Position numbers and translations under genes: made by a program. Shown here one piece after another: positions 14,457 through 35,260 of a stretch of DNA of 59,881 bases. Below the pieces are notes generated by a model. That model was not told where the DNA came from. It was given only the letters and a program-made list of their open reading frames with translations, and made no database searches. Origin of the DNA: Nodosilinea sp. LEGE 07298 (GTDB lineage: Bacteria > Cyanobacteriota > Cyanobacteriia > Phormidesmidales > Phormidesmidaceae); contig NZ_JADEXE010000007.1 of NCBI RefSeq assembly GCF_015207265.1, positions 1 through 59,881 on the forward strand, written 5' to 3'. How positions within the stretch are numbered: the first letter of the stretch is position 1; each line of letters opens with the position of its first letter.

Positions 14457-14501
14457 CTAGCCATTGTGGTACCACGATAAAGAATTGCTGAAGTCATCTT
14501 G

Positions 14502-14609
14502 ATAACACCCCACTTTTGGGAGTTATGCAGAATTTTTTCAGTCTAACTACCCTTTTCGAGGCGATATTCAACTCAAAATCTGGCTAATCACCCTGATTGG
14601 GGGTGTTAT
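14502..14609. repeat. Inverted repeat ATAACACCCC / GGGGTGTTAT before the cassette array
   Basis: Ten-base arms at 14502-14511 and 14600-14609 are perfect reverse complements about 88 bp apart. The left arm also pairs locally with GGGAGTTAT (14518-14526), giving a short hairpin with TTTTTT 8 nt later, which may terminate the T4SS operon. The stretch lies between the last operon gene and the first cassette core at 14645, where an integron attI site would be expected. Either role is inference. Confidence 0.45.
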
Positions 14610-14644
14610 ACAGAGTACAGAAAGAGAAAGCAGGCTAAACACAA

Positions 14645-14654
14645 GTTATCTCGC
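14645..14654 (+). other. Left core site of the cassette array
   Basis: GTTATCTCGC here is the exact reverse complement of GCGAGATAAC at 15623-15632, the R'' box of the first attC-like site. In an integron cassette the R' box of its attC is split, with its right part lying at the left end of the inserted cassette, so this pairing is what a genuine first cassette boundary should show. Confidence 0.65.
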
Positions 14655-15704: not shown

Positions 15705-15713
15705 TTAGCTAGC
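15623..15713 (+). other. attC-like recombination site 1
   Basis: Imperfect palindrome with attC architecture: outer boxes GCGAGATAAC (15623-15632) and GTTAGCTAGC (15704-15713), 4-nt unpaired spacers AATT and ACCC, then an inner stem CTGTTGGAGCGGCG / CGCCGCTCAACAG that pairs fully except for one extra-helical G, and a ~40-nt variable loop. Unpaired spacers plus an extra-helical base are hallmarks of folded single-strand attC sites recognised by IntI. Confidence 0.75.
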
Positions 15714-15726
15714 TAAGTTATCAGTA
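15713..15726 (+). repeat. 14-bp direct repeat, copy 1 (CTAAGTTATCAGTA)
   Basis: CTAAGTTATCAGTA immediately follows the attC-like site 1 core and is repeated exactly at 19766-19779, just after the core of site 2. A related AAGTTATC lies at the left boundary of the array (14643-14650). It may be a conserved leader of cassettes from one source, or part of the recombination site. Confidence 0.7.
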
Positions 15727-15775
15727 GGAACCTGACCGAACAGTTGTCTGTGGGACGCAGCATTAAATTGCTTTT

Positions 15776-16624
15776 ATGAAAAACAAAGCAGCAGAAATAT
15801 CCATTCATGCCTGGGAATCAGATGGCATTTTACTAGAGCGATATGCTTACACATCAGGTTCCGTAGAGCCGCTTCTAAGACATTCCCATGAAGAGTATCA
15901 GTTTGGTTTGAGTTTTAACTGCCAAGGTAAATATCACTATCGCGGTGCATACTATTCCATCCCTCCTGGAAGTTTGAGCGTGATCCATTCAGGCGAGATC
16001 CATGCGCCGAGCGATCGCACTTATCTGGCCGCACCCGCCCATTTTGCAATGATGCATATCAATCCAAAATGGGTACAAAAGGTTGCTGATGAAATGGCTG
16101 AAAAGCCTGTCAGTCTTCCTTTCTTCTCAACAGCATTTCTTACCGATACAAAATTGAATCATTTGTTTTTAGCATTGCAGACAGTGGCAAATCAGAGTAC
16201 TTCTAAATTGGAGCAAGATATAGCCCTTGGGGACTTCCTCTCCTATCTGGTTCAGCATTACGTTTCAAATAGTTCTTTCGTTCACCCTTTGAAGTCAGCC
16301 CATGCATCTGTAATGGTTGCCCGTGAGTATCTTCATGCTCACTACACCGACGATATCTCTCTGGAGTCGTTGGCAGCGATCGCTGAATTAAGCCGCTTTC
16401 ACTTCTGTCGCGTCTTTCGTCAAACGTTAGGCGTATCTCCCAATGTTTATCAAACTCAACTGCGAATTGCTCAGGCGAAAAAGCTATTAATACAGGGAAT
16501 CCCAGTTTCAAAGATCGCTGAAATGACAGGTTTTTATGACCAGAGTCACTTTGGTTGGCACTTTAAACGTCAAGTTGGCGTCACGCCCAGACGGTATGTC
16601 AGCAAAATAGCAATAACTTCCTAG
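15776..16624 (+). CDS. AraC-family transcriptional regulator
   Basis: 282 residues. The N-terminal ~150 residues form a cupin-like sensor (RHSHEEYQFGLSF, PPGSLSVIHSGEIHAPSD), and the C-terminal ~100 residues hold the two helix-turn-helix motifs of AraC/XylS: DISLESLAAIAELSRFHFCRVF and the signature region IAEMTGFYDQSHFGWHFKRQ-GVTPRRY. Such regulators usually activate adjacent catabolic or detoxification genes on binding a small ligand. Here the four following open genes run in the same direction with short gaps, so the SDR/AKR genes are the likely targets. ATG start at 15776; no strong ribosome binding site seen. Confidence 0.9.
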   Translation: MKNKAAEISIHAWESDGILLERYAYTSGSVEPLLRHSHEEYQFGLSFNCQGKYHYRGAYYSIPPGSLSVIHSGEIHAPSDRTYLAAPAHFAMMHINPKWVQKVADEMAEKPVSLPFFSTAFLTDTKLNHLFLALQTVANQSTSKLEQDIALGDFLSYLVQHYVSNSSFVHPLKSAHASVMVAREYLHAHYTDDISLESLAAIAELSRFHFCRVFRQTLGVSPNVYQTQLRIAQAKKLLIQGIPVSKIAEMTGFYDQSHFGWHFKRQVGVTPRRYVSKIAITS

Positions 16625-16690
16625 ACTGATGAAAGGCATTTGCTATACCCTCTTACTGTTTATTGAGTTGTGAGAAAGGGAGAAGGAAGG

Positions 16691-17584
16691 ATGTCAGATG
16701 TCAGTCGCCGTCAAATGCTAACGACTGGAGCGGTTGGGATTGCTGGATTTGCAGCGGCAATTGCAACTCAATCGGCTCAGGCAAATACTCAAGATCCGCC
16801 TGAACCTCAAACCAGCGTGAATCCCAACGGTCGCTTTACAGGTCAAGTGGTGCTGATCACCGGAGCTACATCAGGAATTGGAGAAGCTACTGCACGGGCA
16901 TTTGCTGCCGAGGGTGCTACTGTTCATTTTTGCGGTCGGCGCGAAGTGTTGGGAGAGCAAGTGGCTCAAAGTATTCGGGATGCAGGCGGCAAAGCTATCT
17001 ATCAACGAGCCGACGTCCGAATTGAGGATGATGTAAAAGCGTTTGTCAATAGTTGTGTGGAGCAGCATGGGCGCATCGATATTGCCTTCAATAACGCTGG
17101 CATCTTTATGACTCCTGCTGAAATCCAAGACATTCCATTGGATAACTTCATAGACATCTTGACAACTAACACTGTAGGCGAGTTTCTCTGCCTGAAGTAC
17201 GAAATCCCGCAGATGCGGCGGCAAGGCGGTGGCAACATCATTAACATGGCATCAGTGGCAGGACATGTGGGCTTTCGTACAACGGCTCACTACAATGCCA
17301 GTAAGCATGGAGTTATTGGATTAACAAAAGCGGCTGCCCAAGAAAATGCTGATCATAATATTCGCATCAACTCAATTTCACCCTTAGCAGTCGATACACC
17401 GCAGCTACGGGAGTCCTTTGCCTTTCAGGGAATTACCTACGAACAGGCAGTTCAAGGCTTTGTGACGAAGCGGATTATGACGACCCATGAAATGTCAGAA
17501 GCCGTTATGTTCTTAGCGTCTAATCAAGCAACATCAATGACGGGCATGGATTTAGATGTTACGGGGGGGCAGTTAGCAGGTTAG
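16691..17584 (+). CDS. Short-chain dehydrogenase/reductase with Tat signal (first of two)
   Basis: 297 residues from ATG 16691, which has GGAGAAGGAAGG directly upstream; an earlier GTG at 16670 is less likely. The N-terminus is a twin-arginine signal (SRRQMLTTGAVGIAGFAAAI ending near SAQA). The enzyme has the NAD(P)-binding TGATSGIG from residue 57, NNAG, catalytic Ser in MASVAG and YNASK with Tyr201 and Lys205. Classical SDRs are cytoplasmic oxidoreductases of alcohols or ketones; a Tat leader implies export of the folded, cofactor-loaded enzyme to the periplasm. It is 74 bp before a close paralogue with the same leader style. Confidence 0.88.
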   Translation: MSDVSRRQMLTTGAVGIAGFAAAIATQSAQANTQDPPEPQTSVNPNGRFTGQVVLITGATSGIGEATARAFAAEGATVHFCGRREVLGEQVAQSIRDAGGKAIYQRADVRIEDDVKAFVNSCVEQHGRIDIAFNNAGIFMTPAEIQDIPLDNFIDILTTNTVGEFLCLKYEIPQMRRQGGGNIINMASVAGHVGFRTTAHYNASKHGVIGLTKAAAQENADHNIRINSISPLAVDTPQLRESFAFQGITYEQAVQGFVTKRIMTTHEMSEAVMFLASNQATSMTGMDLDVTGGQLAG

Positions 17585-17657
17585 AACCTTCGCATATTAA
17601 CTCAACCTGGTTAATCGAAAAAAACCACTACAAGCAATTCCACAAGGAGTCATATTC

Positions 17658-18542
17658 ATGTCTAACCTCTCACGTCGTCGTATTCTCACCACAGGCGCAC
17701 TGGGAGCCGCAGGACTGGTCGCAACTGCGGCTTCGCAATCGCAAGCCACCGCACAAACGTCTGCGATTTCTGAGACAGCGATCCCTAACCCAAGTAGCAA
17801 ATTCCAGAATAAGGTTGTGCTGATTACAGGAGCCACCTCTGGGATTGGAGAAGCCACCGCACGGGCATTTGCAGCGGAGGGGGCAAAGGTTTTCTTTTGC
17901 GGGCGACGGGAGAATTTGGGACAAACCGTTGAGCGCGAAATTAGAAGTGCGGGTGGCGAAGCGACTTACGTGCGGGCAGATGTGCGGCATGCAGAGCAAG
18001 TCAAAGCGTTTGTGGATGCGTGTGTCACCCAACATGGTCGTTTGGATATTGCCTTTAATAATGCCGGAACCGATCATCCACCTCACAGAATTGCAGACAC
18101 CCCAATTTCCGAATTTGATGACTTAATGAACACCAACGCTCGTGGCGTATTTTTGGGGATGAAATACGAAATTCCTTATATGCTTGAGGCAGGTGGAGGA
18201 GCCATTGTCAACATGGCAAGTATTGGTGGATATCGTGCCTTTCCCAATATTGTGGGATACGGGGCAAGTAAAGCGGCTGTAATTCACATGACAAAAGCAG
18301 CAGCCCAGGAATATGGAAACTTGCGAATCAATGCGGTGTTGCCTGGAGCGATCGACACCGCCATGCTGGATCGAGTCAAGCGCGATTGGCAAGTGACAGA
18401 AGAACAATTAGTTCAGCCCTACCCCATCCAGCGAGTCGGACAACCTGAAGAAGTTGCAGCAATAGTACTCTGGTTAGCATCGGATGATGCGTCCTATGTG
18501 TCTGGAGGACAATTCAGTGTAGATGGAGGTGGACTTGGGTAA
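17658..18542 (+). CDS. Short-chain dehydrogenase/reductase with Tat signal (second)
   Basis: 294 residues. Twin-arginine signal SRRRILTTGALGAAGLVATA, then TGATSGIGEATARAFAAEGA, NNAG, MASIGG with the catalytic Ser, and YGASK with Tyr201 and Lys205, at the same positions as in the upstream copy. The C-terminal VSGGQFSVDGG is the usual SDR end. The two share long identical stretches around the cofactor site and so arose by duplication. The downstream AKR start lies 47 bp after its stop. Substrate unknown; the paired exported SDRs plus AKR suggest carbonyl or quinone detoxification (inference). Confidence 0.88.
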   Translation: MSNLSRRRILTTGALGAAGLVATAASQSQATAQTSAISETAIPNPSSKFQNKVVLITGATSGIGEATARAFAAEGAKVFFCGRRENLGQTVEREIRSAGGEATYVRADVRHAEQVKAFVDACVTQHGRLDIAFNNAGTDHPPHRIADTPISEFDDLMNTNARGVFLGMKYEIPYMLEAGGGAIVNMASIGGYRAFPNIVGYGASKAAVIHMTKAAAQEYGNLRINAVLPGAIDTAMLDRVKRDWQVTEEQLVQPYPIQRVGQPEEVAAIVLWLASDDASYVSGGQFSVDGGGLG

Positions 18543-18588
18543 GGTTCATAGTAATCGATTGGGCGAATCAGCCAAATTAGGAGAAATC

Positions 18589-19629
18589 ATGCAATACACC
18601 ACCCTTGGGAAAACTGGCTTGGTTGTTTCTCGCCTATCTTTTGGTGCCATGACCTTTGGTGAAGGGCAACTCGTTCCGGGAGTGACCAACAGCATTGACC
18701 AGGCGATGGCGGATCAAATGATCGGTCGCGTTATAGATGCTGGGATCAACCTGTTTGATACAGCCGATGCTTACACCAATGGACAATCGGAAATCATGCT
18801 CGGCAAGGCCCTTGCGAATCGTCGAGATGAGGTCATTATTGCCACAAAATCAGGCTTTCGATCGGGCAATGCCATTACCGATGCAGGGTCGTCTTATCGT
18901 CATATCATGATGGCAGCAGAAGCCAGTCTGAAGCGGTTAAACACGGACTATATCGATCTCTATCAGATTCACATTCCTGATCCGATCACGCCATTAGAAG
19001 AAACCTTACGCGCTTTAGATGATCTGGTGCGACAAGGTAAAGTGCGCTATATCGGCTATTCCAATTTTCCAGCGTGGAAAGCAGCAAAGATGGTGGGCAT
19101 TCAGAAACACTACAACTATGCTCAATTTATCGCAGCCCAAATGTATTATTCGTTGCTGGGACGGGATTTGGAACATGAAGTCGTTCCGTTTGCTGAAGAT
19201 ACAGGCATTGGAGTATTGGTGTGGAGTCCGTTAGCGGGTGGTTTTTTAAGCGGCAAATATACCCGCGAAAACCCAACGCCAGAGGGAGCAAGACTGAACG
19301 AGTTCAAACTGCCACCGATCGATGTGGAGCAGGGCTATGACGTAGTGGATGCGATCAAGTCAATTGCTCAAGCCCATAGTGCATCTCCTGCCCAGATAGC
19401 GATCGCCTGGATTCTCACCAAACCTTTTATTTCTTCAGTTATCGTTGGTGCAAATAAAATGCACCAGCTTGAAGACAACTTGAAAGTTGTGGATCTCACG
19501 CTCTCTGCCTCAGAGATTGATCGACTGGATACTCTCACTGCTCCACCAGCACTTTATCCTGGTTGGATGCAAGCACTGGGATGGGATGCTCAAGTCAAAG
19601 CAGCATTTGATCCAGATTCCAAGAATTAG
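18589..19629 (+). CDS. Aldo/keto reductase
   Basis: 346 residues from ATG 18589, preceded by AGGAGA; an in-frame upstream start would overlap the SDR. All four catalytic residues are visible: Asp57 and Tyr62 in DTADAY, Lys87 in ATKSGF and His128 in YQIHIPD. Further AKR hallmarks are the N-terminal LGKTGLVVSRLSFGAMTFG, IGYSNFPAWKAAKM, VLVWSPLAGGFLSGKY, and the NADPH-binding IVGANKMHQLEDN. AKRs reduce aldehydes and ketones with NADPH in the cytoplasm. It lacks the Tat leader of its two SDR neighbours. It ends 44 bp before the attC-like site 2. Confidence 0.92.
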   Translation: MQYTTLGKTGLVVSRLSFGAMTFGEGQLVPGVTNSIDQAMADQMIGRVIDAGINLFDTADAYTNGQSEIMLGKALANRRDEVIIATKSGFRSGNAITDAGSSYRHIMMAAEASLKRLNTDYIDLYQIHIPDPITPLEETLRALDDLVRQGKVRYIGYSNFPAWKAAKMVGIQKHYNYAQFIAAQMYYSLLGRDLEHEVVPFAEDTGIGVLVWSPLAGGFLSGKYTRENPTPEGARLNEFKLPPIDVEQGYDVVDAIKSIAQAHSASPAQIAIAWILTKPFISSVIVGANKMHQLEDNLKVVDLTLSASEIDRLDTLTAPPALYPGWMQALGWDAQVKAAFDPDSKN

Positions 19630-19672
19630 TGAAAGAGTTGAATTGGCAATAGGAGCGATCGTAAGTGCCGTC

Positions 19673-19761
19673 AGCTAACAACGCCCATGCACGCCGACCG
19701 CCGAAAGGTGATCAGGGATGATGCAGAGGTTATCTGCGGCGGGTGATTGGTACCGTTATGC
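19673..19761 (+). other. attC-like recombination site 2 (weaker)
   Basis: Outer boxes TCAGCTAAC and GTTATGCTGC pair with one bulge, and the left box pairs with the start of cassette 2 (GTTAGCTAGC). The inner stem is limited to CCGCCG / CGGCGG with poor pairing outside it, so the site is less convincing than sites 1 and 3 and may be degenerate. Confidence 0.5.
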
Positions 19762-19765
19762 TGCT

Positions 19766-19779
19766 CTAAGTTATCAGTA
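19766..19779 (+). repeat. 14-bp direct repeat, copy 2 (CTAAGTTATCAGTA)
   Basis: Exact copy of 15713-15726, again just inside the start of a cassette. The related AATTATCAGT near 20865, after the last site, may be a decayed third copy. Confidence 0.7.
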
Positions 19780-19819
19780 AGGCTATTCTTTAAAGCCTAT
19801 TTGTCAAGGAGAAATCTTC

Positions 19820-20671
19820 GTGATCTTCGTAACAGGCGCAACTGGAAGGGTTGGAGGCAAGCTGGTTGAATCACTTTTGCGATCAGGAAAAAGGGTAAAG
19901 GTGTTAGTCAGAAATCCACAGAAAGCAACAATCTACCAAGCCCTGGGAGTATCAGTTTTCCTGGGTGACCTCAACCAATCAGATCGTTTAGAGGAAGCAT
20001 TATGGGGGTGCGATCGCCTTTTTTCAATTCCTCCCAATACGATGAATCAAGCGGAGCAAGAGATTCAACTTTACCAAGCAGCTAAACGTGCTGAAATACG
20101 GCATGTTGTCAAATTATCTACTGTTAAATCTGACCCCGAATCACCCTGCCAGTTTTTTAAGCAACATGCGATTGCAGAGCAATACCTAAAACAATCCGGT
20201 ATCAAATTTACAATTTTGCAGACAAACTCGTTTATGCAAAACTTTCTATGGTTCGCTCATGAGATGAAGACAAAAGGTACATTAGCTTTGCCCATGAGAG
20301 ACGCAAAAACCGTACCAATAGACATTCGTGATGTTGTGCGTGTTGGATCTGCAATTTTGACAGAGGAAGGACATGAGGGGAAAACGTACAATTTAACGGG
20401 TTCAGAGCTACTCTCATTGCAAGAGATTGCTGAAAAGCTCTCTATAGTCGCCAATCAAAAGATTACTTACATTGATGCCTCTCCATTGGATTTTAAGCAA
20501 ACCCTAATTCGATTGGGTGTTCCAGAGTGGTTTGCTGAGGCGGTAACTACATCTTGGCAAATCGCTAGCAAAGGAAGACCAACCCTTACTGACACGGTTA
20601 CTAAAGTTGGAAGAGAGCAACCAATTACTTTTAATGAATTTGCTTGGGATTATAAAGCAATATTTACCTAA
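19820..20671 (+). CDS. NmrA-like NAD(P)-binding protein (atypical SDR)
   Basis: 283 residues from GTG 19820, with AAGGAGAAA upstream. The N-terminal dinucleotide-binding motif is TGATGRVG in MIFVTGATGRVGGKLVESLL, followed by VKVLVRNP (NADP-type basic residue), VFLGDLNQ and DIRDVVRVGSAILTEEGHEG, all typical of the NmrA/NAD(P)H azoreductase-like branch of atypical SDRs. The classical YxxxK catalytic pair is not evident, so a redox-sensing or quinone-reductase role is as likely as dehydrogenase activity. It is the only gene of cassette 3. Confidence 0.85.
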   Translation: MIFVTGATGRVGGKLVESLLRSGKRVKVLVRNPQKATIYQALGVSVFLGDLNQSDRLEEALWGCDRLFSIPPNTMNQAEQEIQLYQAAKRAEIRHVVKLSTVKSDPESPCQFFKQHAIAEQYLKQSGIKFTILQTNSFMQNFLWFAHEMKTKGTLALPMRDAKTVPIDIRDVVRVGSAILTEEGHEGKTYNLTGSELLSLQEIAEKLSIVANQKITYIDASPLDFKQTLIRLGVPEWFAEAVTTSWQIASKGRPTLTDTVTKVGREQPITFNEFAWDYKAIFT

Positions 20672-24805: not shown

Positions 24806-27800
24806 ATGGACGTCAACGATCAAATTGAGCTGACCCGTGCCTACGGCGATCACTTTAGAGCGGGCCATGCCTTCCGCAATATTGTGGAGGCCAGGGCATT
24901 TGCGGCGACGGTTCTGGGGGTGCCCGTCGAGCCCTCGACCATGCTGGCCAAGGAGGTAGATGAGGCGATTGAGTCAGGGTTGGTGCAGGCGGCTCGGCAG
25001 ATAGTAGCGCAATCCGAGGGCGATCACCTCCTGGCCTTTGACGACCTGCTATCGCTCTATGAGGCTCAGCCCAACCTGCTGGTCCGAACCTCCGACAGCA
25101 TGGCTCGGCAGGCCTACTCTACCCCGTTGCCCATGGCCTTTGTAGCAGGGCTGATTGCCCAGGTTCACCCCTCGGTAACCGTCTACGAACCCACGGCGGG
25201 CAATGGCTCCCTGCTGCTGCTGGCCGAACCAGCCCAGGCGATCGCCAACGAGCTCCATCCCCCCCGTGCCGCCCAGCTGCGCACCCAGGGGTTTACAGTC
25301 ACCGAACACGACGCCACCCAGTACCGACCGGATCGCCCCTACGACGTGCTGGTGAGCAACCCTCCCTTTGGGCAGCTGCGCGAGAACGGTACCGGGCCGC
25401 CCCAGCGCTGGCAGCATGGCCCCGTCAGCACCCAGAAGATCGACCATGCGATCGCCCTCCAGGCATTACAGGGGCTTTCCCCAGAGGGTAGGGCGTTACT
25501 CATCATCGGCGGCCACATGGGCAATGCCAGCGCCCGCCAATCCGCCTACCGGGGTCAGGCAGACCGCAGTTTCTACTCATTCCTCTACCAACAGAGCGGC
25601 TGGAAGGTAGACGATCACTTCACCCTGCACGGCTCGACGTACCGACGGCAGGGAGCCGGGTTTCCCATCGACTTCATCTCCATTGCGGGCCAAGGCTCCA
25701 CTGACCTGAGGCTGCCCGGCGCTCAAGCCCCCCGCATCTATGACCGATACGACGATCTCCGAGAGGTAGTCATCCATGCCGCTAGAACCTACGACGCAAA
25801 GTATCTGGAACTCTCCCCTCCCGTTGAGCTACGCCCTGGATCACCCCGACGAGCCGGTTCAGGTCTGGACGCCAACCCGGTGGCCAGCGATGACCCAGGC
25901 CGAGGCCGGAACCTGGTGGACGACGGTGCCGGTACCCCCCAACTCACTGTTGATGACTCTGGAGGATTACCGCGCCCGCTTGCTCTGGCTGTTGGAGGTG
26001 AAGCTGTCCCAATTCCTCATGGACAGGCAGGCGGAGGGGATGACGTCCAGTCAGGCGATCGCCTTGGTCAATCAACTGATCAACGCGGTGCTGCCGGAGG
26101 CCCACTGGATGCCGGGAACCGTGAGTCCGCTGGCCCGCCTGCTGAATTTGGATTACTCACCTCTGCGGGAGCTGTTGTTTCCCCAGGGAGTGGACGAGTT
26201 TCCAGTCCTACCGGAGGCGATGGCGACCGACACTCTGGAGATGATCACCGACAGCTGGAACCTGATCGACTGGCTGAACAACCTGCAAGCCCTGTTGATG
26301 GAGGACTCCCGATGGTAGCTCAAGCGAATACCGAGGAGGATATCCTCCAGCAACCCCAGGATGATGCCGTCACCCTGCCCTACAGGCCGCGATCGCAGGG
26401 CTACTCCCTGGGAGTATTGGCCCCCGCCTCAGCGATTACGGCCTACGGCAACGTGTTCGACCGTATCGAGGCGACTACGGGTCTGGGAGTCGATGCCTAC
26501 GTCCAAGACCGACTGCAAGAACCCGACCTCGACTCCCTCTATAGCCACTACGCAGCAGAGCAGATCGACACCCTGGCCCTGGCCATCTACAACCACGAGT
26601 ACAAGCAGCAGGCGACGGTTGTCGGGCATGATACGGGCATTGGCAAAACCCGGATCGTGGCGGGCCTCTGCCGCTACGCCCAAAACCAGGGGCTAACGCC
26701 TGCGGTGGTGACCGCTGACCCCACCCTCTACAAAGACCTGGTCTACCGAGATGGGCCAGACACCGGCAACCAATTCCGCCCCTTTATTACCGACAATGGC
26801 CTGAACGTGCGGGTCGAAGATAGCCAGGGCGAACTGATTGGGCGGATTGAAACCCCTAAAAAAAATGGGGTCAATGTCCGTCGGTTTACCGAGCTGGGCA
26901 CCATTGGCGACCACAACCTGTTGATGAGTACCTACGGGCAACTCCAGGGGCTAGCCAGCAAAGATCGGCGGGCACTGTTCGAGGCGCTGGCCCCTAACCT
27001 GTTTTTGATTGCCGACGAGTCCCACAAAGCCGGTGGCCCAGCAGGAGAATTTGAGATCAGCAGCTACGAGGAAGCCGCCAGGGCCAAGAAGATGGCCGCA
27101 GGCAAGTTTATCGCCCCGGTGACCGAGTTTTTTCAAGATCTCACCCAGCGAGTGGGCGGGTTTGTCGCTAGCTCCGCAACGGCGATTAAAGAGCCGGTGG
27201 TCGCTGCCCGGCTGTTCTACCACACCACTGACTTCAAAGATGCCGCCGAAGACCAAAAGACCTTTGCCGGGCACCTCCAGTCCGGCGGGGCCGCCATGCA
27301 GCAAATGGCCTTTGGGCTCTGGTCAGAGGCGGGTGGGTGCATTCGCTTTCAAAAAGATTACTCCGGCGTTGACTTCAGCCCAGCCCCAGTGGCCGTCAGC
27401 CTGGATCGCGCCGAGGCCAATATTCAGCTGATGGCGGCCATCAACCGCTTTGATGAGTACAAGCAAGGCCTGCTCGAAGACCTCGACGCCCGGATGGCTG
27501 AGACCGGCGAAGCTCTGTTCCGCCATGACACCCATGTGGGCTATGCCGGAGTTGAATCAACGACTTTTACCTCGGTGGTGCACAACCTGGGAGCCATCTG
27601 CGCGATCGCCCTCAAGGCTGAGGCTACAGCAGATCTGGCGATCGCAGAGCTAGAGGCTGGGCGCAAGCCGGTGATCATGCTTCAACGCACTGGGGAGTCG
27701 GTGCTCAAAGACCTGGTGAAGCTTACCAATGGGAGCATCGAGACCCATAACGCCCTCTTTCCCGATGACCAGCGGTCTATCCTCAAGCCGGGCGATGCCT

Positions 27801-30800
27801 TTGACATTACGGCAGGAGAATACTTCAAGCGATACCTCGACGCGGCTCGAACGATTCGGATTGTCGGTGCCCATGAGGATGAGGGCGGCGGTAAAGTCAT
27901 CCTGCCCCACTACCTGACCGACGCCGAATTGGGCGAGCGGGGGGTCGAAATGTATAACCAGGTGCTGACGGCGATCGAGTCTAGCGACTGGACAGGGCTA
28001 CCTGCCGACCCCATTGCCTACATGGAGGCCCGCATTCGACAGGCGGGCTACAACGCGGTGGAAATGACCGGACGGAGCCAGCGGCTGGAGTACCAACCGA
28101 CTGAAGACGGGCAATTTGTGACGACCTACCAGGCCCGTAAGTCGGGGGCCGCTGCCAAGGTAGCGACGATCGCCGGATTCCAGAACGGCACCGTCGATGC
28201 GGTGATCACCAACCTGACCACCGGCTACTCGCTCCATGCTGCGATCAATGGGGCCACAGACCTCAGGCGTCGCTCCATGCTGATTCTTCAGGCTCACCCC
28301 GATGTCAACCAGTGTGAGCAGTCGATTGGGCGCACCCATCGCAGCGGGCAGCTCGACCCAGAGGTTCACCCCGCTACCGGCACCGACTCTGCGGGTAATC
28401 CCCTGTGGGGTCAGAAGGCCGGTGAGTTTGGCCTGCCCATGTTCAAGCTCGTCTACGGGGAAGGATTGCCCACCGAGGCCAGAGCCATGGCCGTTTTGAT
28501 GAACAAAATGCGGGGGCTCAAGTCCAACACCGCAGGCACGGGCGAAAGCCAGTTTTCGGGGGCCGATGTGCCTGACTTTTTGAACAAGTACGGCGACCAG
28601 GCAGCGGCCAACACCATGGCAGCGATGCCAGAGGTCAATCAAACCCTGGACTACCCCTGTAGCCCCCCTGACAAGGATGGAGATGTCAGCTATGGCGATG
28701 TGCGCAAGCTGACCGGACGGGTGGCTATTCTGTCGAGCGATCAGCTGCCGACCCCAGATGATCCGTACCCATCCCTGGCCCTTCAGGGTGAGGTTTACGA
28801 CCTGTTGATCTCCGAATACAACGGCCTCAAGAATCGGCTAACCGCGATGGGGGCCTGGGATCTCGATGCTCAAAAGATGGATCTAGACGCCAGGCCCCTG
28901 CGCCGCAAGATGCTCCATAACGGCGATGGGGGCAACCCGTTCCGGCAGCCCGTCTACGCCTTGGAGGTGGAGGCCAAGACCGGGGGCAAACCCCAGACTA
29001 CGTTGCAGGTGGTGCAGTCAGTTTGTGATGCCTTGGAACTAGCTAAACCCGACGACCTGGAGGGGGTTGAACTAACGGTTGAGGGTGCGATTCGCCAGGC
29101 CGGGCAGGCTCATGCCCAGGAGACGGTGGCGCGGGTGACCGCAGAGGGCGAAGCCTTCCGGGAGGGCAAAGCTGAGCATTTTACAGAAGCTCTGAACCGG
29201 GCTCGACAGCAGCTTGAAGATGCCAATACGCGTCGCGAGGGGCTGAGGGATGAGCGTGATCAGTTGACCACAGCTCTAGAACAGGTGCTCCCAGAGTACA
29301 CCGCCGCCAGGGAAGCGCTGAACCAGTCGGGAGCGGTGACCCCAGAGCGGGAAGCTGAGCTGGAAGGCCAGTATGAGCAGCGCCGGGTTGATATGCGTAA
29401 CGCCCTCAAAAAAGTTGAAGGGAAGCTAACCAAGCAGGATCAGCGGGTCAAAAACGCTGAGAAGAAGGTCGCCGATGCCGAGAAGGATAAAGCTCAGAGC
29501 GCCATGATTTTAACGGCCCAGCAGAACGGTGTCCTTGGCAAGCTGCGGGAGTTTCCCATCGGCGCTCCGGTACAGTTGGCCTCCCTCGATACCAGCCGGG
29601 CGCTGCCAGGGGTCATCGTCGGAGTCACCCGCCAGCAAAATGCCTCCAACCCAATCAACCCTGGGTCATGGCGATTCAGGATTGCCCTGGCGGACGAGGC
29701 CGGAGAACTGTCGGTCAAATTTAACGAACTTGGCCGAGATGTCTCGCTTAAGCCCCAGGAAAATTCCTTTGTCTTCAAGAATCAGCCGGGGCAGGTGTTG
29801 CAGCAGTACACCGAGGTGCCGACCTACAGCGTCTTTGACGAAAAGCAGATGGCCTCCCGCGAGCATCGCATGATGGTGGTGGGCCAGGTGCTCAAGTCTG
29901 ACCTCGTGGGTCGGTTTGCCCTCATGCAGGACAACGAGGGGGAATACCACCCGGCCTACCTGCTGGCCAAGGGGATCGATGCTGGAGAGATTGATAACCG
30001 TCCGATCTCGATTCAGCAGCCCGATCAGTTGATGGCATTCCTCTCGGCAACATCGAGGGCGGCCAGCTTCACAGATCGCGATGGCGTTCTAGACGCTGAG
30101 TTTAACCTGCGCAACGAGCTGGTCTTGACGGTGCCCACCAGCAGCGCGGGTAAGAAGTTTTACCAAGACCGCGAGCTGCTCGACCTGGCGCAGGGGGAGT
30201 TTGTCTCGGGGACTCGACGAGTGGAAGGCGACAAGCCAGGCCGCACCACCGAAGAGAAGATGATGCAGATCAAAATTGGCGATGCCAAGGCCCAGGACGA
30301 TGTGCTGGCCTACCTCGTTACCCGGCGCGGCATCAAGGCTACATCGCATCTGGAAGAGGCGACCGCTGCGGTGGGTGGAGAAACTGCAGGCTGGGAACCA
30401 GCAACCACCTGGCTCCCCGTGGGTAACGAAGTCACCAGCAGTGACCGGAGTCGGGCCATTCACCCCATTTTGCGGGCCGAACTGGAGCGCAACCCTGGGC
30501 TCATCCCTGAACCTGGCGAGGACTCATCCCCCAGCCGCTGGGAGGTGATGAATGCTGTTTCCGATCGCCTGTATTCCGGCAGCAACCTGGCCGACCTCAA
30601 GGCCGAATTCAACCTCTACGAGCCACCCCCGCCCGCGTTGACCTTTGACACCCTGGTTAAAGGCGGGGTGCTCCAGACTGACGGGCAACCCCTGCACCCA
30701 GAGGCGATCGCCTTCCATGAGTATCTCGGTGACTCGTCTAGCGGTGCGACCCCTGATGTCTTGATGCAGCGGGCCGTAGAGACCCTGGGTGGCGAGATAT

Positions 30801-33364
30801 CCCCGGATAGGGCGATTGAGGCGATAGGACGCACCTACCGTTGTCTGAGCGATCACCTGGAGGCTGGCCTGGATCTGGAGATGGCTAAGTCCGCCATGGA
30901 CAACGAAGACTCTGCCTTCTTGGGACAGTTTGCTGCCGATAGCCCTGAGATGGAGGAACGCATTGCCGAGGCTGTGCGCCAGGTTGTCGCAGAGGCCTTT
31001 GATGAGGCGATCGCTGCCCAGGCCCAGGAGCAACAGGATGAGGCTGTGCAGCAGGCGGGCCGACAGCGGCTGCGCGAGATGTCCCGCGAGGGTGGCCCCC
31101 AGGTGCTGGCACCGTCGCAGCAGACGACCCCGATCGCCCAGGCCGTTACCCGGCTGCTCCAGCAGGGCGGGCTCCAGCAGGCGGTCATGGTCGATGGGGA
31201 CGACGATTTTCATATCAGAGTGCCGAATGAACCCTACATGGATTTAGTGGTTGAGTCGCACCCCAATGGGGTGGGCGGCAGTGATTTGTACCTGACCCAC
31301 TACGCCACCGGCAACGGCGATATGTGGATTGATACTGAGATGAAGATGGGCATTCAGCCCGATGGACATCTTCAGTTCGTTGAGACTGCGGTGCAAGGGT
31401 CTAATGGCGGCGAACTGCGTGCCCCCGATCGCGCCTTTGGCATGATATTTGCTCAGAACTTGCTGGAGCAGGGCTTTGGTGAGGCGATCGCTGATGCTTA
31501 TCTGACCCAGTTGGGTCAGGAGGCGATCGCTGAACCGGGTCTCGAATCTGTTGCCCAGCAGCCTCTCCCGCCAGAGCTTGTGAATCCCCTAGAGGTGCTA
31601 TTCCAGCAGCGCCCCGATCTGTTCCATGGGTTTGATCGGGCTGAATTTGAGGCACTGGCTGCCGACTCGCCTGAAATTCTCTATCAAGACGGTGAGCAGG
31701 GCTTCCTATGGTTGGAGGGCCACAATAATCCCTATGCCTATCAGCAAGATGCGGTGAGAGATGCCTTGGCCGGGGCCTCGATTTCCCCGCCCGAGTTCCT
31801 GGCTGAGGATGCCCCTTCAGAGCCTCACCTAGCATCAGCCCACGACCCGCAGGTTCCCCCGGAGACGGCCCTGGCGGGGGGCATAGGAGCCACAGATATG
31901 CGGCCTGCCCAAGATATTTATGACGATCTGGGGCTGGTGGTGCAACCCTTATACCCTCAATCCTCTCAGGATGCGCCTGTCAGCAGCCCGTTGCCGCAGC
32001 CTGACCCGCCCACCGATGGAGATGAGGCATTGCTTCCCGATCTTGGCCCTGGGCCACACCATCCCCACCTGAAGCGTTTTGCTGAACTCAAGGCCGATTA
32101 CCCAGAGGCTGTTGCTTTTGTCCGGGTGGATCAGGCCTATGAGTCTTATGCCGAGGATGCGCAGATCGCGGCCTATGGTGTAAGGCGACCCACTCAACCG
32201 ATGCAGTGGGGACTTGACCCCGACTGCGAGGGCTTAAGCGTCAATACCGCTGACCTGCAAGAGCAGATTATTCCGACCCTCACCCAGGAGGGCATTACTG
32301 TGGTTGTGGCCGAGCTGCACCCGCAGCTGGGCTTTGAGGCAAATGGGGCTGCGCGCGTCTACGAGGCCGACCTAGAGCGGTTTCACGATGCTGTTGGATT
32401 TGCCCCACCCCCGGCGGTAGAGGTGCCAACGGGGTCTCTTGGGCTTGAGGCGCTCGAACGTGGTGGCGCTGTACTCACCTTTGAGGCTGGGGAGCGGATT
32501 TGGGAACTACAGCTTTCCCAGGATGAGCTGGCCATGGTCAACGCCTCCATGCAAAATGCCAAGGCCGTGGTGCGTGAGAGCGGTACAGAGGTTGGGGCTC
32601 AATGGATGGAGCGAGCAGCCAATACTATCGCCACGAAAGCCTTGGGCGATGAGCACGGCGACCCCGTGACCATCAGTGGTGCTGTTGGTCAGCTGATGGC
32701 CGAGTTTTATACCTCTCTAGATGCAGCGGTCAATCCTGCGAGTCAAAGTGCTACGCCATTCGAGCGGCAGGCCGATCCCGGTGGAGTAGATCCGTCCCCT
32801 ACGATTCCCATCGCTGAGCAACCCTCCGTCGATGCTCCGTCTGAGGTGTCGCCGGTTGCCCTAGCAGAGCCGGTGCAAAGCCAAGCCTTGCTCGAAGATT
32901 TGCGTGAATGGTATTCCCAGGCGCGGGCCTTGGGGCGATCGCCGTCGCACCTGGGTCGCATTGAACAGATCGGCCAAGCGATCAAATCGGGGCATGAGGG
33001 GGAGTACGGCGACGTAGACAGAATGACGCGTCAGCACGACCAAAAGGCCTATCTTCAGCAGGCCGCTAACGTTTTGGCTCAATCTAAATACCTGTTAGCT
33101 CAGTTAGGGCAAGATCAGCCCGATGGTTCAAAAGTCTTTGCAGGTAAGACCTATACCCTTCTCAGTCAGGGAGATGAGATCGCCGTTTCGGCAAGAGAAA
33201 GAGGCGAAATTTTTAACGCCAAGGGCAGCCGAGTTTTGCACAGTCAGGGGCTGAGTGCCGAAGATGCCCACAAGTTTAGTGCCCAAGTATCTCGGGTGCG
33301 ACAGGCCCTAGCGGCACAAACTACCCCTCACCCAGCTGCTATCCCGGCTGTTTATGATCGGTAG
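24806..33364 (+). CDS. Giant polyvalent protein: N6-adenine methyltransferase + Strawberry-notch-type helicase
   Basis: 2852 residues. Methyltransferase domain at ~95-320: SAM motif YEPTAGNGS from residue 127, catalytic NPPF at 185-188. Residues ~324-502 are a Gly/Pro/Asp-rich linker read antiphase to a nested gene. From Met503 follows an SF2 helicase of the Strawberry-notch group: Walker A VGHDTGIGKT 606-615, DESH 737-740, motif VI IGRTHRSGQ 1174-1182. After it come a coiled coil (~1450-1560), an OB/beta-rich C-terminal sbno region, and several poorly defined domains. The last ~85 residues match a module repeated in the next gene. Methylase-helicase giants of phages and conjugative elements (P1 DarB; the polyvalent proteins of Iyer and Aravind) enter the recipient with DNA and block restriction. 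No stop separates the two halves, though a restart at 26312 (ATGGTAG) is possible. Confidence 0.85.
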   Translation: MDVNDQIELTRAYGDHFRAGHAFRNIVEARAFAATVLGVPVEPSTMLAKEVDEAIESGLVQAARQIVAQSEGDHLLAFDDLLSLYEAQPNLLVRTSDSMARQAYSTPLPMAFVAGLIAQVHPSVTVYEPTAGNGSLLLLAEPAQAIANELHPPRAAQLRTQGFTVTEHDATQYRPDRPYDVLVSNPPFGQLRENGTGPPQRWQHGPVSTQKIDHAIALQALQGLSPEGRALLIIGGHMGNASARQSAYRGQADRSFYSFLYQQSGWKVDDHFTLHGSTYRRQGAGFPIDFISIAGQGSTDLRLPGAQAPRIYDRYDDLREVVIHAARTYDAKYLELSPPVELRPGSPRRAGSGLDANPVASDDPGRGRNLVDDGAGTPQLTVDDSGGLPRPLALAVGGEAVPIPHGQAGGGDDVQSGDRLGQSTDQRGAAGGPLDAGNRESAGPPAEFGLLTSAGAVVSPGSGRVSSPTGGDGDRHSGDDHRQLEPDRLAEQPASPVDGGLPMVAQANTEEDILQQPQDDAVTLPYRPRSQGYSLGVLAPASAITAYGNVFDRIEATTGLGVDAYVQDRLQEPDLDSLYSHYAAEQIDTLALAIYNHEYKQQATVVGHDTGIGKTRIVAGLCRYAQNQGLTPAVVTADPTLYKDLVYRDGPDTGNQFRPFITDNGLNVRVEDSQGELIGRIETPKKNGVNVRRFTELGTIGDHNLLMSTYGQLQGLASKDRRALFEALAPNLFLIADESHKAGGPAGEFEISSYEEAARAKKMAAGKFIAPVTEFFQDLTQRVGGFVASSATAIKEPVVAARLFYHTTDFKDAAEDQKTFAGHLQSGGAAMQQMAFGLWSEAGGCIRFQKDYSGVDFSPAPVAVSLDRAEANIQLMAAINRFDEYKQGLLEDLDARMAETGEALFRHDTHVGYAGVESTTFTSVVHNLGAICAIALKAEATADLAIAELEAGRKPVIMLQRTGESVLKDLVKLTNGSIETHNALFPDDQRSILKPGDAFDITAGEYFKRYLDAARTIRIVGAHEDEGGGKVILPHYLTDAELGERGVEMYNQVLTAIESSDWTGLPADPIAYMEARIRQAGYNAVEMTGRSQRLEYQPTEDGQFVTTYQARKSGAAAKVATIAGFQNGTVDAVITNLTTGYSLHAAINGATDLRRRSMLILQAHPDVNQCEQSIGRTHRSGQLDPEVHPATGTDSAGNPLWGQKAGEFGLPMFKLVYGEGLPTEARAMAVLMNKMRGLKSNTAGTGESQFSGADVPDFLNKYGDQAAANTMAAMPEVNQTLDYPCSPPDKDGDVSYGDVRKLTGRVAILSSDQLPTPDDPYPSLALQGEVYDLLISEYNGLKNRLTAMGAWDLDAQKMDLDARPLRRKMLHNGDGGNPFRQPVYALEVEAKTGGKPQTTLQVVQSVCDALELAKPDDLEGVELTVEGAIRQAGQAHAQETVARVTAEGEAFREGKAEHFTEALNRARQQLEDANTRREGLRDERDQLTTALEQVLPEYTAAREALNQSGAVTPEREAELEGQYEQRRVDMRNALKKVEGKLTKQDQRVKNAEKKVADAEKDKAQSAMILTAQQNGVLGKLREFPIGAPVQLASLDTSRALPGVIVGVTRQQNASNPINPGSWRFRIALADEAGELSVKFNELGRDVSLKPQENSFVFKNQPGQVLQQYTEVPTYSVFDEKQMASREHRMMVVGQVLKSDLVGRFALMQDNEGEYHPAYLLAKGIDAGEIDNRPISIQQPDQLMAFLSATSRAASFTDRDGVLDAEFNLRNELVLTVPTSSAGKKFYQDRELLDLAQGEFVSGTRRVEGDKPGRTTEEKMMQIKIGDAKAQDDVLAYLVTRRGIKATSHLEEATAAVGGETAGWEPATTWLPVGNEVTSSDRSRAIHPILRAELERNPGLIPEPGEDSSPSRWEVMNAVSDRLYSGSNLADLKAEFNLYEPPPPALTFDTLVKGGVLQTDGQPLHPEAIAFHEYLGDSSSGATPDVLMQRAVETLGGEISPDRAIEAIGRTYRCLSDHLEAGLDLEMAKSAMDNEDSAFLGQFAADSPEMEERIAEAVRQVVAEAFDEAIAAQAQEQQDEAVQQAGRQRLREMSREGGPQVLAPSQQTTPIAQAVTRLLQQGGLQQAVMVDGDDDFHIRVPNEPYMDLVVESHPNGVGGSDLYLTHYATGNGDMWIDTEMKMGIQPDGHLQFVETAVQGSNGGELRAPDRAFGMIFAQNLLEQGFGEAIADAYLTQLGQEAIAEPGLESVAQQPLPPELVNPLEVLFQQRPDLFHGFDRAEFEALAADSPEILYQDGEQGFLWLEGHNNPYAYQQDAVRDALAGASISPPEFLAEDAPSEPHLASAHDPQVPPETALAGGIGATDMRPAQDIYDDLGLVVQPLYPQSSQDAPVSSPLPQPDPPTDGDEALLPDLGPGPHHPHLKRFAELKADYPEAVAFVRVDQAYESYAEDAQIAAYGVRRPTQPMQWGLDPDCEGLSVNTADLQEQIIPTLTQEGITVVVAELHPQLGFEANGAARVYEADLERFHDAVGFAPPPAVEVPTGSLGLEALERGGAVLTFEAGERIWELQLSQDELAMVNASMQNAKAVVRESGTEVGAQWMERAANTIATKALGDEHGDPVTISGAVGQLMAEFYTSLDAAVNPASQSATPFERQADPGGVDPSPTIPIAEQPSVDAPSEVSPVALAEPVQSQALLEDLREWYSQARALGRSPSHLGRIEQIGQAIKSGHEGEYGDVDRMTRQHDQKAYLQQAANVLAQSKYLLAQLGQDQPDGSKVFAGKTYTLLSQGDEIAVSARERGEIFNAKGSRVLHSQGLSAEDAHKFSAQVSRVRQALAAQTTPHPAAIPAVYDR
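25776..26318 (+). CDS. Nested antiphase gene inside the methyltransferase-helicase linker, unknown
   Basis: 180 residues in a different frame from the giant gene. ATG 25776 has GAGAGG at 25761-25766 and an in-frame TAG at 25767 just before it; the TAG stop at 26316 lies in ATGGTAG, overlapping Met503 of the helicase frame, a coupling junction. The product looks like a real soluble protein: Trp-rich, Leu/helix-rich (DYRARLLWLLEVKLSQFL, SSQAIALVNQLINAVL, WNLIDWLNNLQALLM). Its codons (CTG, GAG, ATC, GCGATCGCC read as Ala-Ile-Ala) match window genes, whereas the giant frame gives low-complexity Gly/Ser/Asp/Pro. No family recognised. Either overprinting or a three-gene operon whose first stop was lost (naturally or by sequence error). 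Confidence 0.65.
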   Translation: MPLEPTTQSIWNSPLPLSYALDHPDEPVQVWTPTRWPAMTQAEAGTWWTTVPVPPNSLLMTLEDYRARLLWLLEVKLSQFLMDRQAEGMTSSQAIALVNQLINAVLPEAHWMPGTVSPLARLLNLDYSPLRELLFPQGVDEFPVLPEAMATDTLEMITDSWNLIDWLNNLQALLMEDSRW

Positions 33365-33378
33365 TACCCATACAGGTT

Positions 33379-33525
33379 TTGTTAGATGGCCCAGCCTTTG
33401 ATGTTGATGGACTGCCCCTGAGTCAAGCACCCCCCCATTGCTCAAGGTTCCCCGATGAACGCATTATCGCCATGGCCAAAGCAGCCATCCGTGCAGGATG
33501 TCGCGAAGTGGTTGTTGAAAAATAA
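33379..33525 (+). CDS. Possible 48-codon ORF between the giant gene and the primase
   Basis: Reading from TTG 33379 to TAA 33523-33525 gives a coherent-looking peptide (LLDGPAFDVDGLPLSQAPP, then DERIIAMAKAAIRAGCREVV) that overlaps the first 70 nt of the primase gene in another frame. No clear ribosome binding site. It may be a small gene, or the remnant C-terminus of a lost gene. Weak. Confidence 0.2.
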   Translation: MLDGPAFDVDGLPLSQAPPHCSRFPDERIIAMAKAAIRAGCREVVVEK

Positions 33526-35260
33526 CCTACCGCCGCTCCCCATTGCGCCAGAGCAGGATGCTTACCGGTATCCCAAGGTAAATCTTGACCGCCCGAACAG
33601 GGGGATTTATTGCCATACCCCCTTGGTTGAAGTCGATGGGAAGCTTTGCCCGATCTCTAGATTTACCGGTAAAAACCCGAGCTACCTGGATGCCGATGGC
33701 CATCCGCACAGTGTCAATCATCGGGACTTTCAGTCTAGGATGCCTAACCCAAGTGAGCTGGACGCCTGGTTTTCCAATCCCCAGAATGGAATTGCCACGC
33801 TGGGCAATGAGCGTACCGTGTTCATTGACTTCGATGTTAAAAACTTTGGTTCACAAGACGTTTGTGATGCCGCTGTTCTAGCGTGGGCTGAGACCCATCC
33901 TCAACTGAAGCAGACCTACGCTGAACAGACCCATCGAGGCGGGTGGCATTTTATGGTGCAACTGGATCACCCCAAAGACTTTACCAACTTTGCCCTAGAG
34001 CCAGGTGGCCAGCATGTGGGTGAGGTGCTTGGAGTCGGCAGGGTCTGTGTACTGGCTCCGACCATTGGCCCCACCGGCAATCCTTACCGGGCTAGGCATC
34101 TCGTGGCGGCCCCAGTGGCCGTCGCAGACCTCTCTGCGATCGGGATATTTAAATCAGGGGTTCAGACTGCAACAAAAAACTCTGAGCATGGTATCCCTAT
34201 TGGCGAGACTATTCCTATCAAGGCTCGGCCACGACGTAAAAAGACGCTGCCAGGGAGTTCGACGGTAGACCTGTCAGATCTGATTTCAGACCGCGCCAGA
34301 GACGTTCTAGCAGGCGGTGGCGGTGGGCATAGCGATCGCTCCTATGCGATCGTGTCGCTGGCCCGAGAGACATTTGGCTGGGAAAACTGGGCCAGAGAGA
34401 ATGGTATCCCTCTGAGCGGGCAGACTGCTGAAGCGCTGACGATTCAAGGGGGATTGGCCCACGGGGCTGACGAGGATCACATTCATAGAATCATGGATGG
34501 AGCGTCATTGGAACTGGCTTGCCCCTCCTGTGAGTATCAAGGGGCTGAGTTCCCCTGGGTACGATTACGAAAAGTTTCTCCGACGATGTTCGAGCAGAAG
34601 GCTCCGCTGGCCATGGGGCTTCCGGTAGATCGAAGTCGGCTAGACGTGAAGCCCAATCAAATAGTTAATGAGCCCGTCGATCTAAATCATGACTTGTTAT
34701 GTGCGGCCAGTCGAGTTTTGCATGAGAGAGGGCAAGTTGGATCTAACGATTTGATGCTTGCCTTTGTGGGCGATCAGTATGCCGTAAATCTTGACAAAGA
34801 AGGGAAGCTTAGTATTTTGAAGGATGGACGAACTATATTCGTCTATGAGAATAAGAAAACTGTCTTCAATCGATCTCAAGCCAGCGATTCAAAATCACTT
34901 CTGGCTGATGCAGAGATTGAACCGGGTTCGCAATCTAACGCAGAGAAACAAGCTACTGACAGGCAGTATCCTTCTAAATCAGTTGAATTGCTAAATCTTG
35001 CTGCCTTGATTTTGTCTCGTGCTGGTCAGCCTAGCGAGCTTGGCGGGTTTAAAGTTGAGGGGCGAAGAAACTCAGTCATCTTGACCGAGGAGGGAGTTTT
35101 GCTAGCGACTCAAGAAGGGAGAACTGTCTTGAAGGCAAAAGGGTCAGCAATAGAATTTAGTCGAGCATCTGAGCCTGTTTTAGAAGACTTTAGGAATGCA
35201 GTCTCTATCTTAAACCAGCAGAATCAGGGACAGACTAAATCCCCGCAGAATCAGATTTAG
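33455..35260 (+). CDS. Primase-polymerase (AEP)-like protein of the conjugative element
   Basis: 601 residues. The N-terminal ~230 residues resemble the bifunctional primase/polymerase N-terminal domain: VAKWLLKNNLPPLPIAP, the metal-binding pair Asp125/Asp127 in FIDFDVKN, and the HRGGWHF motif with His165. A Zn-finger-like pair CPSCEYQG follows near residue 350. The C-terminal third holds two copies of a ~65-residue module (around 408-475 and 510-580) that also ends the giant protein upstream. No helicase domain is fused. Plasmid primases make primers on the incoming strand; here it would act with the giant helicase in the recipient (inference). The 3' end abuts the IS-rich region. Confidence 0.75.
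   Translation: MNALSPWPKQPSVQDVAKWLLKNNLPPLPIAPEQDAYRYPKVNLDRPNRGIYCHTPLVEVDGKLCPISRFTGKNPSYLDADGHPHSVNHRDFQSRMPNPSELDAWFSNPQNGIATLGNERTVFIDFDVKNFGSQDVCDAAVLAWAETHPQLKQTYAEQTHRGGWHFMVQLDHPKDFTNFALEPGGQHVGEVLGVGRVCVLAPTIGPTGNPYRARHLVAAPVAVADLSAIGIFKSGVQTATKNSEHGIPIGETIPIKARPRRKKTLPGSSTVDLSDLISDRARDVLAGGGGGHSDRSYAIVSLARETFGWENWARENGIPLSGQTAEALTIQGGLAHGADEDHIHRIMDGASLELACPSCEYQGAEFPWVRLRKVSPTMFEQKAPLAMGLPVDRSRLDVKPNQIVNEPVDLNHDLLCAASRVLHERGQVGSNDLMLAFVGDQYAVNLDKEGKLSILKDGRTIFVYENKKTVFNRSQASDSKSLLADAEIEPGSQSNAEKQATDRQYPSKSVELLNLAALILSRAGQPSELGGFKVEGRRNSVILTEEGVLLATQEGRTVLKAKGSAIEFSRASEPVLEDFRNAVSILNQQNQGQTKSPQNQI

Follow-up and report, generated by a model that had tools for sequence, protein, structure and literature searches.

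The window analysed here, a stretch of 59,881 nucleotides from Nodosilinea sp. LEGE 07298, carries on its forward strand a giant open reading frame (24806-33364) of 2852 residues without an internal stop. The predicted protein combines an N6 DNA methyltransferase, a low-complexity linker, a strawberry-notch-type helicase, a DUF6908 domain and a MutS_I domain, with Pfam matches to PF02384 (N6_Mtase, E 2.7e-6), PF13871 (Helicase_C_4, E 1.5e-7), PF21849 (DUF6908, E 6.4e-16) and PF01624 (MutS_I, E 1.1e-4). The methyltransferase part, which includes the motif SNPPFG, occupies 24806-25795 (end approximate), the 172-residue interdomain linker 25796-26311, and the helicase part, with a ResIII/AAA_34-like motor and Helicase_C_4, 26312-28400 (end approximate). 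A phmmer search of the PDB with the helicase part returned weak SRP54 matches only. Two conjugation-type genes are present in the window, encoding a T4SS coupling protein (11376-13253) and a primase-polymerase (Prim-Pol, 33455-35260). Between conjugation genes and the giant, positions 14001-20000 have a GC content of 0.47-0.48, compared with 0.54-0.63 in the preceding 6 kb and the following 12 kb; the genes of this block appear by eye to be reductase-, regulator- and dehydrogenase-like, and the block is perhaps a cargo insertion.

A second gene of 180 codons (25776-26318, forward strand) is nested within the giant. Its start lies 970 nt 3' of the giant start, which places it in the +1 frame. 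The first-pass annotation had pointed to this antiphase frame inside an uninterrupted giant, and the frame and the signals claimed for it could all be located in the sequence: a Shine-Dalgarno (SD)-like GAGAGG inside the methyltransferase codons (25761-25766), a TAG stop in the nested frame 6 nt 5' of the nested ATG (25767-25769), and an ATGGTAG overlap at the end of the gene, formed by the nested stop TAG (26316-26318) and a giant-frame ATG (26312-26314). This ATG is a possible independent start of the helicase, and the GGAGG before it (26300-26304) a possible SD site for a free helicase. The description of the giant frame as low in complexity over the nested gene was also borne out, with Gly, Ser and Pro making up 37.6% of the giant-frame reading versus 18.3% of the nested product encoded by the same DNA. 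Five more copies of the nested family occur in the same genome (contigs C171, C315, C373, C489 and C565), each inside a methyltransferase-helicase giant.

Of 96 genomes searched, five contained the nested protein, one of them the window's own genome; it also matched three named records at 85-93% identity, two of them being, by length, the same contigs; a tblastn search of plasmids with the window's protein gave no useful match. A query comprising methyltransferase and linker (residues 1-502) had matches at E <= 0.001 in 50 of 291 cyanobacterial genomes, counting weak ones, and a helicase query (26375-28000) matched 41 of 291. Of the methyltransferase-query matches 18 were left out, 17 weak ones (E 6e-24 to 4e-4) and one at a contig end (G043:C2); G167:C7 was left out as well. 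Relatives with a methyltransferase only 41-48% identical again have a linker with an open +1 frame, of 142-192 codons and with a similar product. Distinct cyanobacterial loci with the order methyltransferase-nested gene-helicase were gathered through methyltransferase, nested-protein or helicase matches, not through the fusion, and in 53 of 53 a single stop-free giant frame runs over a homologous +1 gene, with linkers of 144-243 aa. Excluded from this set were the permuted loci L089, L090 and L101, where the nested gene is not overlapped, L017, whose contig stops before the helicase, two loci with the helicase only (L087, L088), two methyltransferase fragments (L091, L092), the stand-alone copies and five duplicates. 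Relatives of the giant occur on plasmids.

A recent loss of the methyltransferase stop had been put forward as an alternative to overprinting. As a local event this can be ruled out, since relatives whose nested proteins share only 15-23% identity with that of the window still have the open giant frame; a lost stop or sequencing error confined to this locus was likewise rejected on the ground that the same arrangement recurs in 53 of 53 loci. Three loci are decayed or broken copies, one with stops in methyltransferase and helicase (L045), one with two methyltransferase pieces ~2 kb apart (L084) and one with the methyltransferase divided over two frames (L086); linker and nested frame are still open in all three. 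In L081 (1838-2539, reverse-complement coordinates) a longer linker gives two nested-profile matches in the +1 frame, maybe by partial duplication.

The probability of an open giant frame was estimated with three synonymous nulls, in which each nested protein was kept and its codons were re-drawn. At the window locus it was 0.006 with the codon usage of the locus, 0.023 with the gene's own usage and 0.034 with codon shuffling, and none of 452 same-length coding windows elsewhere in the locus was open in that relative frame. Among 33 cyanobacterial loci the giant frame is open in all 33, against 0.08, 0.51 and 0.98 expected under the same three nulls; products of the single-locus probabilities take no account of shared ancestry and were not relied on.

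Long same-strand overlaps in bacteria are readily dismissed, and annotation pipelines tend to retain one frame. Among nine annotated records with the overlap (PCC 7002, 7117, 7003, CCNUC1, NIES-3755, NIES-970, Gloeobacter, Thalassospira and a Bacteroides phage; the PLSDB gene tables are incomplete), the nested gene is annotated only in Gloeobacter (ISF26_RS23850). On Gloeobacter morelensis pGMOR1 (L268, 3008-4399) the NCBI annotation calls the nested gene together with a separate helicase and has no entry for the methyltransferase; here the overlap confuses the annotation pipeline. Plasmid pAQ6 of the laboratory cyanobacterium Picosynechococcus PCC 7002 is one carrier of the overlapping arrangement, and spectra from this strain have been subjected to a six-frame search that included the plasmids, according to the available part of the VESPA paper (PMC3364912).

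Start signals of the nested gene recur across the family. AAGGAG lies 5' of the nested ATG, within the C-terminal codons of the methyltransferase, in 17 of 33 cyanobacterial loci, and in 21 of 33 the ATG follows a nested-frame stop at a distance of 0-6 nt; the cyanobacterial starts were chosen with the SD in the score. Both features count against programmed +1 frameshifting out of the methyltransferase, which would give a methyltransferase-nested fusion and no separate protein. That reading draws support from the nested frame being +1 in all 53 cyanobacterial loci, and from four loci (L028, L030, L034, L035) in which the nested frame is open for 267-306 nt upstream of the chosen start. Without a systematic search for slippery sites, we regard frameshifting as very unlikely.

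The arrangement also recurs in uncultivated viral contigs. IMG/VR was scanned twice with alignments of methyltransferase and helicase, yielding 319 and 276 relatives, from each of which the best 80 were taken; 15 of these 160 loci had a single domain and were left out, and the remaining 145 represented 104 distinct loci. In these best-ranked sets both domains lie in one ORF in 101 of the 104 distinct two-domain loci, and a +1 ORF of at least 60 codons is present in 99. The +1 open stretch exceeds the +2 stretch in 98 of the 101 fused loci (exceptions L175, L214 and L216). For the 99 loci the expected numbers were 3.4 or 13.5 for an open giant frame and 22.1 or 19.5 for an open nested frame, and same-length windows elsewhere in the viral giants were open in +1 in 1948 of 231677 cases. 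Some of the counted +1 frames (L131 and the automatic pick for L165) look like chance. L214 and L216 have linkers of 132 and 123 nt and no nested gene, L213, L217 and L219 have two ORFs and no nested gene, and these five loci group together as a single clade in the helicase tree (support 0.998). In L213 (2403-3997) methyltransferase and helicase are in different frames, with ~1.6 kb of extra sequence between them.

With viral nested starts placed by profile distance, 32 of 50 have an SD core, compared with 647 of 6764 background ATGs. The starts of 16 viral seed members were picked with the SD in the score; without them the count is 17 of 34. A cruder measure based on the first ATG gave 45 of 97 versus 1764 of 14559.

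Cyanobacterial and viral nested proteins are related by profile comparison. Alignment of the two profiles with hhalign covered 124 columns (Prob 97.4, E 9e-12; in a repeat, Prob 97.6, E 3.2e-12), whereas the giant-frame reading of that DNA, run as a control, gave Prob 0.5 and E 0.11. The viral seed profile matches 52 of 99 viral +1 fragments at E < 1e-3, 16 of these being seed members, and 10 of 33 cyanobacterial nested proteins; the cyanobacterial profile matches 29 of the 99 viral fragments. Some of these E-values were computed against databases of only 99 or 132 sequences. For Bacteroides-phage-like groups (e.g. L102-L115, L199-L222) the profiles did not show homology to the nested family, and viral groups without a profile match may be unrelated or too divergent. 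The corresponding linkers of a Thalassospira plasmid and a Bacteroides phage also contain +1 ORFs; homology to the nested family is weak for the former (i-E 0.024) and was not shown by profile comparison for the latter. In tblastn, two viral nested proteins searched against phages, and one of them also against plasmids, gave no useful match.

The nested product was matched to no known family in the four members scanned (window, L011, L022 and L052), none of which reached threshold in Pfam, NCBIfam or PHROGs; the best E-value was 0.0075 (NCBIfam), under the curated cut-offs, and PHROGs returned nothing for the four. The first-pass annotation had called the product folded-looking, a description that the model of the window copy did not uphold (pLDDT 54.6, 17 alignment rows). 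The viral copy L148 was modelled with confidence from a 44-row alignment (pLDDT 91.0, pTM 0.81) as a helical core with short strands around it. Comparison of this model with the PDB and BFVD gave no significant match (Foldseek best E 8.1; VIA-align best Z 2.6 over 67 residues, 66 chains aligned), which does not prove a new fold, and a sequence search of the PDB with the viral nested profile gave 0 matches.

Substitution patterns were compared within groups of related loci. In the close group of the window (10 pairs), 11-26% of nested third positions in the linker region are changed, compared with 1-19% of positions 1 and 2, and it is in this form, as third-position-biased substitution, that the earlier claim of real-gene codon bias holds. 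Giant-frame four-fold sites are changed at 0-9% in the linker versus 17-29% elsewhere in the giant. At nested four-fold sites the divergence (0.13-0.27) hardly falls below that of the methyltransferase (0.22-0.29), if at all, so amino-acid-level constraint on the linker is weak or absent in this group. Judged from these patterns, the nested protein is the constrained product here and the linker is mainly kept open.

The viral comparisons comprised nine hand-chosen groups with 31 loci and 43 pairs, which are not independent. In every one of the 43 pairs, nested position 3 changes fastest and identity is higher for the nested protein than for the linker. The reverse pattern, homologues that keep the linker and not the nested frame, had been named as grounds for refutation; the opposite was found, the nested frame being the better conserved. 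At the same time, the ratio of linker to nested conservation is better than that of an off-frame methyltransferase reading to its own frame in 42 of 43 pairs. Change at nested position 3 lags behind that at methyltransferase position 3 in 36 of 43, and nested four-fold sites are slower than those of the methyltransferase in 40 of 43. Pooled four-fold divergence is 0.349 for nested genes (531/1522) versus 0.530 for methyltransferases (2312/4365). The substitution data thus point to selection on both frames, the giant-frame signal coming mainly from the viral pairs.

Relatives outside the overlapping arrangement provide a further view of the family. Stand-alone nested homologues (L052, L053, L054, L062 and L093) have no methyltransferase or helicase match within ~1.5 kb. 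A permuted order, nested gene-helicase-methyltransferase, is found in L089, L090 and Leptolyngbya boryana NIES-2135, where the nested gene is annotated as the hypothetical NIES2135_62090. In the permuted giants L089, L090 and L101 the nested gene is separate and upstream, the helicase comes first and the methyltransferase lies far downstream. Fused proteins of plasmids from P. putida (L097), Acinetobacter sp. Z1, Shinella and Xanthobacter gave no nested-profile match. Fused relatives lacking the nested gene have either a short linker (L214, L216 and P. putida L097) or a long one (Acinetobacter sp. Z1, Shinella and Xanthobacter). On the plasmid of Methylotuvimicrobium alcaliphilum 20Z (L265, ~3160-3500) the Gly/Ser-rich linker of a related giant holds a different +1 ORF of ~115 aa (MIVSTYNEASINQ...), which did not match the nested profiles and is possibly a second, independent nested gene.

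An open +1 frame can occur without the nested family, as in the linkers of Xanthobacter L266 (200 codons) and P. putida L097 (116 codons), counted over the part that was translated. Neither these stretches nor that of P1 darB matched the nested profiles (best E 0.46), and they look like ordinary off-frame translations, open by composition. An open +1 frame alone is therefore no proof of a nested gene. Such cases lend some weight to the view that only the giant is made and that the +1 ORF is a by-product of biased codons in a linker rich in Gly, Ser, Pro and Arg, as does the linker codon composition itself, which favours an open +1 frame (19.5-22.1 of 99 expected given the giant sequence). A by-product would not be expected to be better conserved than the linker in 43 of 43 pairs or to show distant homology in the nested frame only, and SD enrichment, the confident fold of one member and the stand-alone and permuted copies also contradict this view, which we find scarcely credible.

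The helicase could in principle be made from its own start. A giant-frame ATG lies close to the nested stop in 32 of 33 cyanobacterial loci, 15 of them with an SD core, and a free helicase may therefore be an additional product in cyanobacteria. In viral loci such an ATG is present in only 19 of 99, with an SD core in 5 and overlapping the stop in none; GTG and TTG were not counted. A helicase made from its own nearby ATG was accordingly rejected for most viral loci, and with so few such ATGs the viral helicase would mostly be reachable only through the linker. A free helicase is thus possible in cyanobacteria and does not seem general in viral loci, its production being inferred in either case.

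The same counts bear on a reading in which the locus yields three separate proteins, a methyltransferase with an out-of-frame tail, the nested protein and a free helicase, and the continuous giant frame is not functionally used. The cyanobacterial ATGs suit this reading, as do the nested gene and separate helicase in the NCBI annotation of Gloeobacter pGMOR1 and the separate methyltransferase and helicase genes of Persicobacter, where no nested gene is present. On the Persicobacter plasmid pPP10 (L267, 2381-5717) these two genes overlap by 4 nt, and no nested-profile match was found. A giant frame without a use would hardly remain stop-free in all 53 cyanobacterial loci and in 101 of the 104 viral ones, against expectations of <1 of 33 and 3.4-13.5 of 99, and most viral helicases lack a nearby ATG of their own; we consider three separate proteins highly improbable. 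The giant frame appears to be used too, to judge from the slower divergence of nested four-fold sites and the scarcity of ATGs close to viral helicases.

The explanation that we favour, with a probability of roughly 0.88, is that the locus is truly dual-coding and that this state is old, the DNA encoding a giant and a separate small protein. It rests on both frames being open beyond chance, on selection in the nested frame and constraint on the viral giant frame, on enriched start signals, on nested homology between cyanobacteria and part of the viral contigs, and on the stand-alone and permuted copies; production of both proteins is inferred, as there are no expression data. True overprinting, as first suggested for this single locus, is strongly supported and extends much wider, to 53 of 53 cyanobacterial and 99 of 104 viral two-domain loci, with homology for part of them. 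Ribosomes starting at 24806 would read one frame through to give the methyltransferase-helicase giant, whose linker would be the out-of-frame reading of the nested gene, stop-free and otherwise little constrained in the window group. Ribosomes starting internally at the SD-ATG of 25776 would give the separate 180-residue protein.

The methylase-helicase dyad has been proposed, in the available part of PMC5512222, to modify injected DNA and so protect it against restriction. By inference from that proposal, the giant most likely modifies or protects the DNA of its element during transfer. The leading candidate role for the nested product is that of an accessory subunit or regulator of the methyltransferase-helicase, since it would share a message with the giant and its gene remains the neighbour of the helicase in permuted loci as well. 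This assignment of function is tentative, and we place it somewhat below even odds. The position next to the helicase in permuted loci hints that the helicase part is the partner, and two products of one message would always be inherited and dosed together.

The origin of the nested gene is more conjectural. It is possible, if doubtful, that overprinting in the disordered linker of a methylase-helicase on a mobile element gave rise to the gene de novo, at a time when the cyanobacterial and viral lineages had not yet split, that it became a folded, conserved partner, and that it later escaped more than once into non-overlapping chromosomal and permuted-plasmid copies. In the tree of nested proteins (midpoint root, without support values) the stand-alone copies L052-L054 and L062 are interspersed with overlapped ones. 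The opposite course, in which an existing gene was inserted out of frame and the giant came to read through it, remains possible.

Searches of the open-access literature listed no earlier description of this nested gene. Its recurrence in many cyanobacterial plasmid-like loci and uncultivated phage-like contigs makes the product look less like a local accident than like an old partner protein that has been overlooked. The case is fully nested and distantly conserved, with a statistical signal in both frames and a confident, so far unmatched predicted fold in one member, and it comes with natural controls in the stand-alone copies, the permuted loci and the relatives without a nested gene. It suggests an overlooked protein partner for an anti-restriction-like enzyme of plasmids and phages, and opens an old question to testing, whether the disordered linkers found in giant proteins can act as nurseries or carriers for second genes.

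Among known systems the giant is closest in plan to the polyvalent dyad of PMC5512222, described in the available text as an adenine methyltransferase fused to a SWI2/SNF2-clade helicase, with a Strawberry-notch version named, carrying extra polyvalent domains such as MutS-I and occurring in phages and conjugative elements. Leaving aside the N-terminal LPD36 domain that also belongs to this type, the window protein has each of these features: a methyltransferase match above cutoff (PF02384, 27.4 bits vs 20.4) with SNPPFG corresponding to NPP(Y/F), a C-terminally fused Strawberry-notch helicase (PF13871, 31.9 vs 30.5 bits; AAA_34 under its cutoff), a further polyvalent domain (MutS_I, 22.8 vs 20.6 bits), and a mobile-element setting, given the T4SS coupling protein and Prim-Pol in the window and the relatives on plasmids. 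The same source, as far as it was available, calls polyvalent proteins scarce in cyanobacteria; it describes no second gene in the linker, and the word 'overlapping' is absent from its main text.

P1 DarB is likewise a giant methylase-helicase, with an antirestriction role according to the available part of PMC5512222. It differs in that its methylase matches the profile only weakly (i-E 2.8e-7), and orthology was rejected because the helicase profiles are not significant against it (A3 i-E 0.7, hes none). Ahead of its helicase a +1 frame is open for 177 codons, without a match to the nested profiles (best E 0.46). The stand-alone cyanobacterial homologues and NIES2135_62090 present the converse, belonging to the nested family yet having no methyltransferase-helicase frame over them. 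Overprinted genes of bacteria and viruses (PMC4683798, PMC2268670, PMC8227390) share with the present pair the principle of two proteins from one DNA stretch in different frames, and both frames here show two marks of such a pair, being open beyond chance and apparently under selection, the giant frame mainly in the viral pairs. The cases in those papers are, in the parts available, single recent bacterial orphan genes or viral overlaps; unlike them, the present case is a same-strand +1 gene that lies wholly within an interdomain linker and has been retained across distant lineages.
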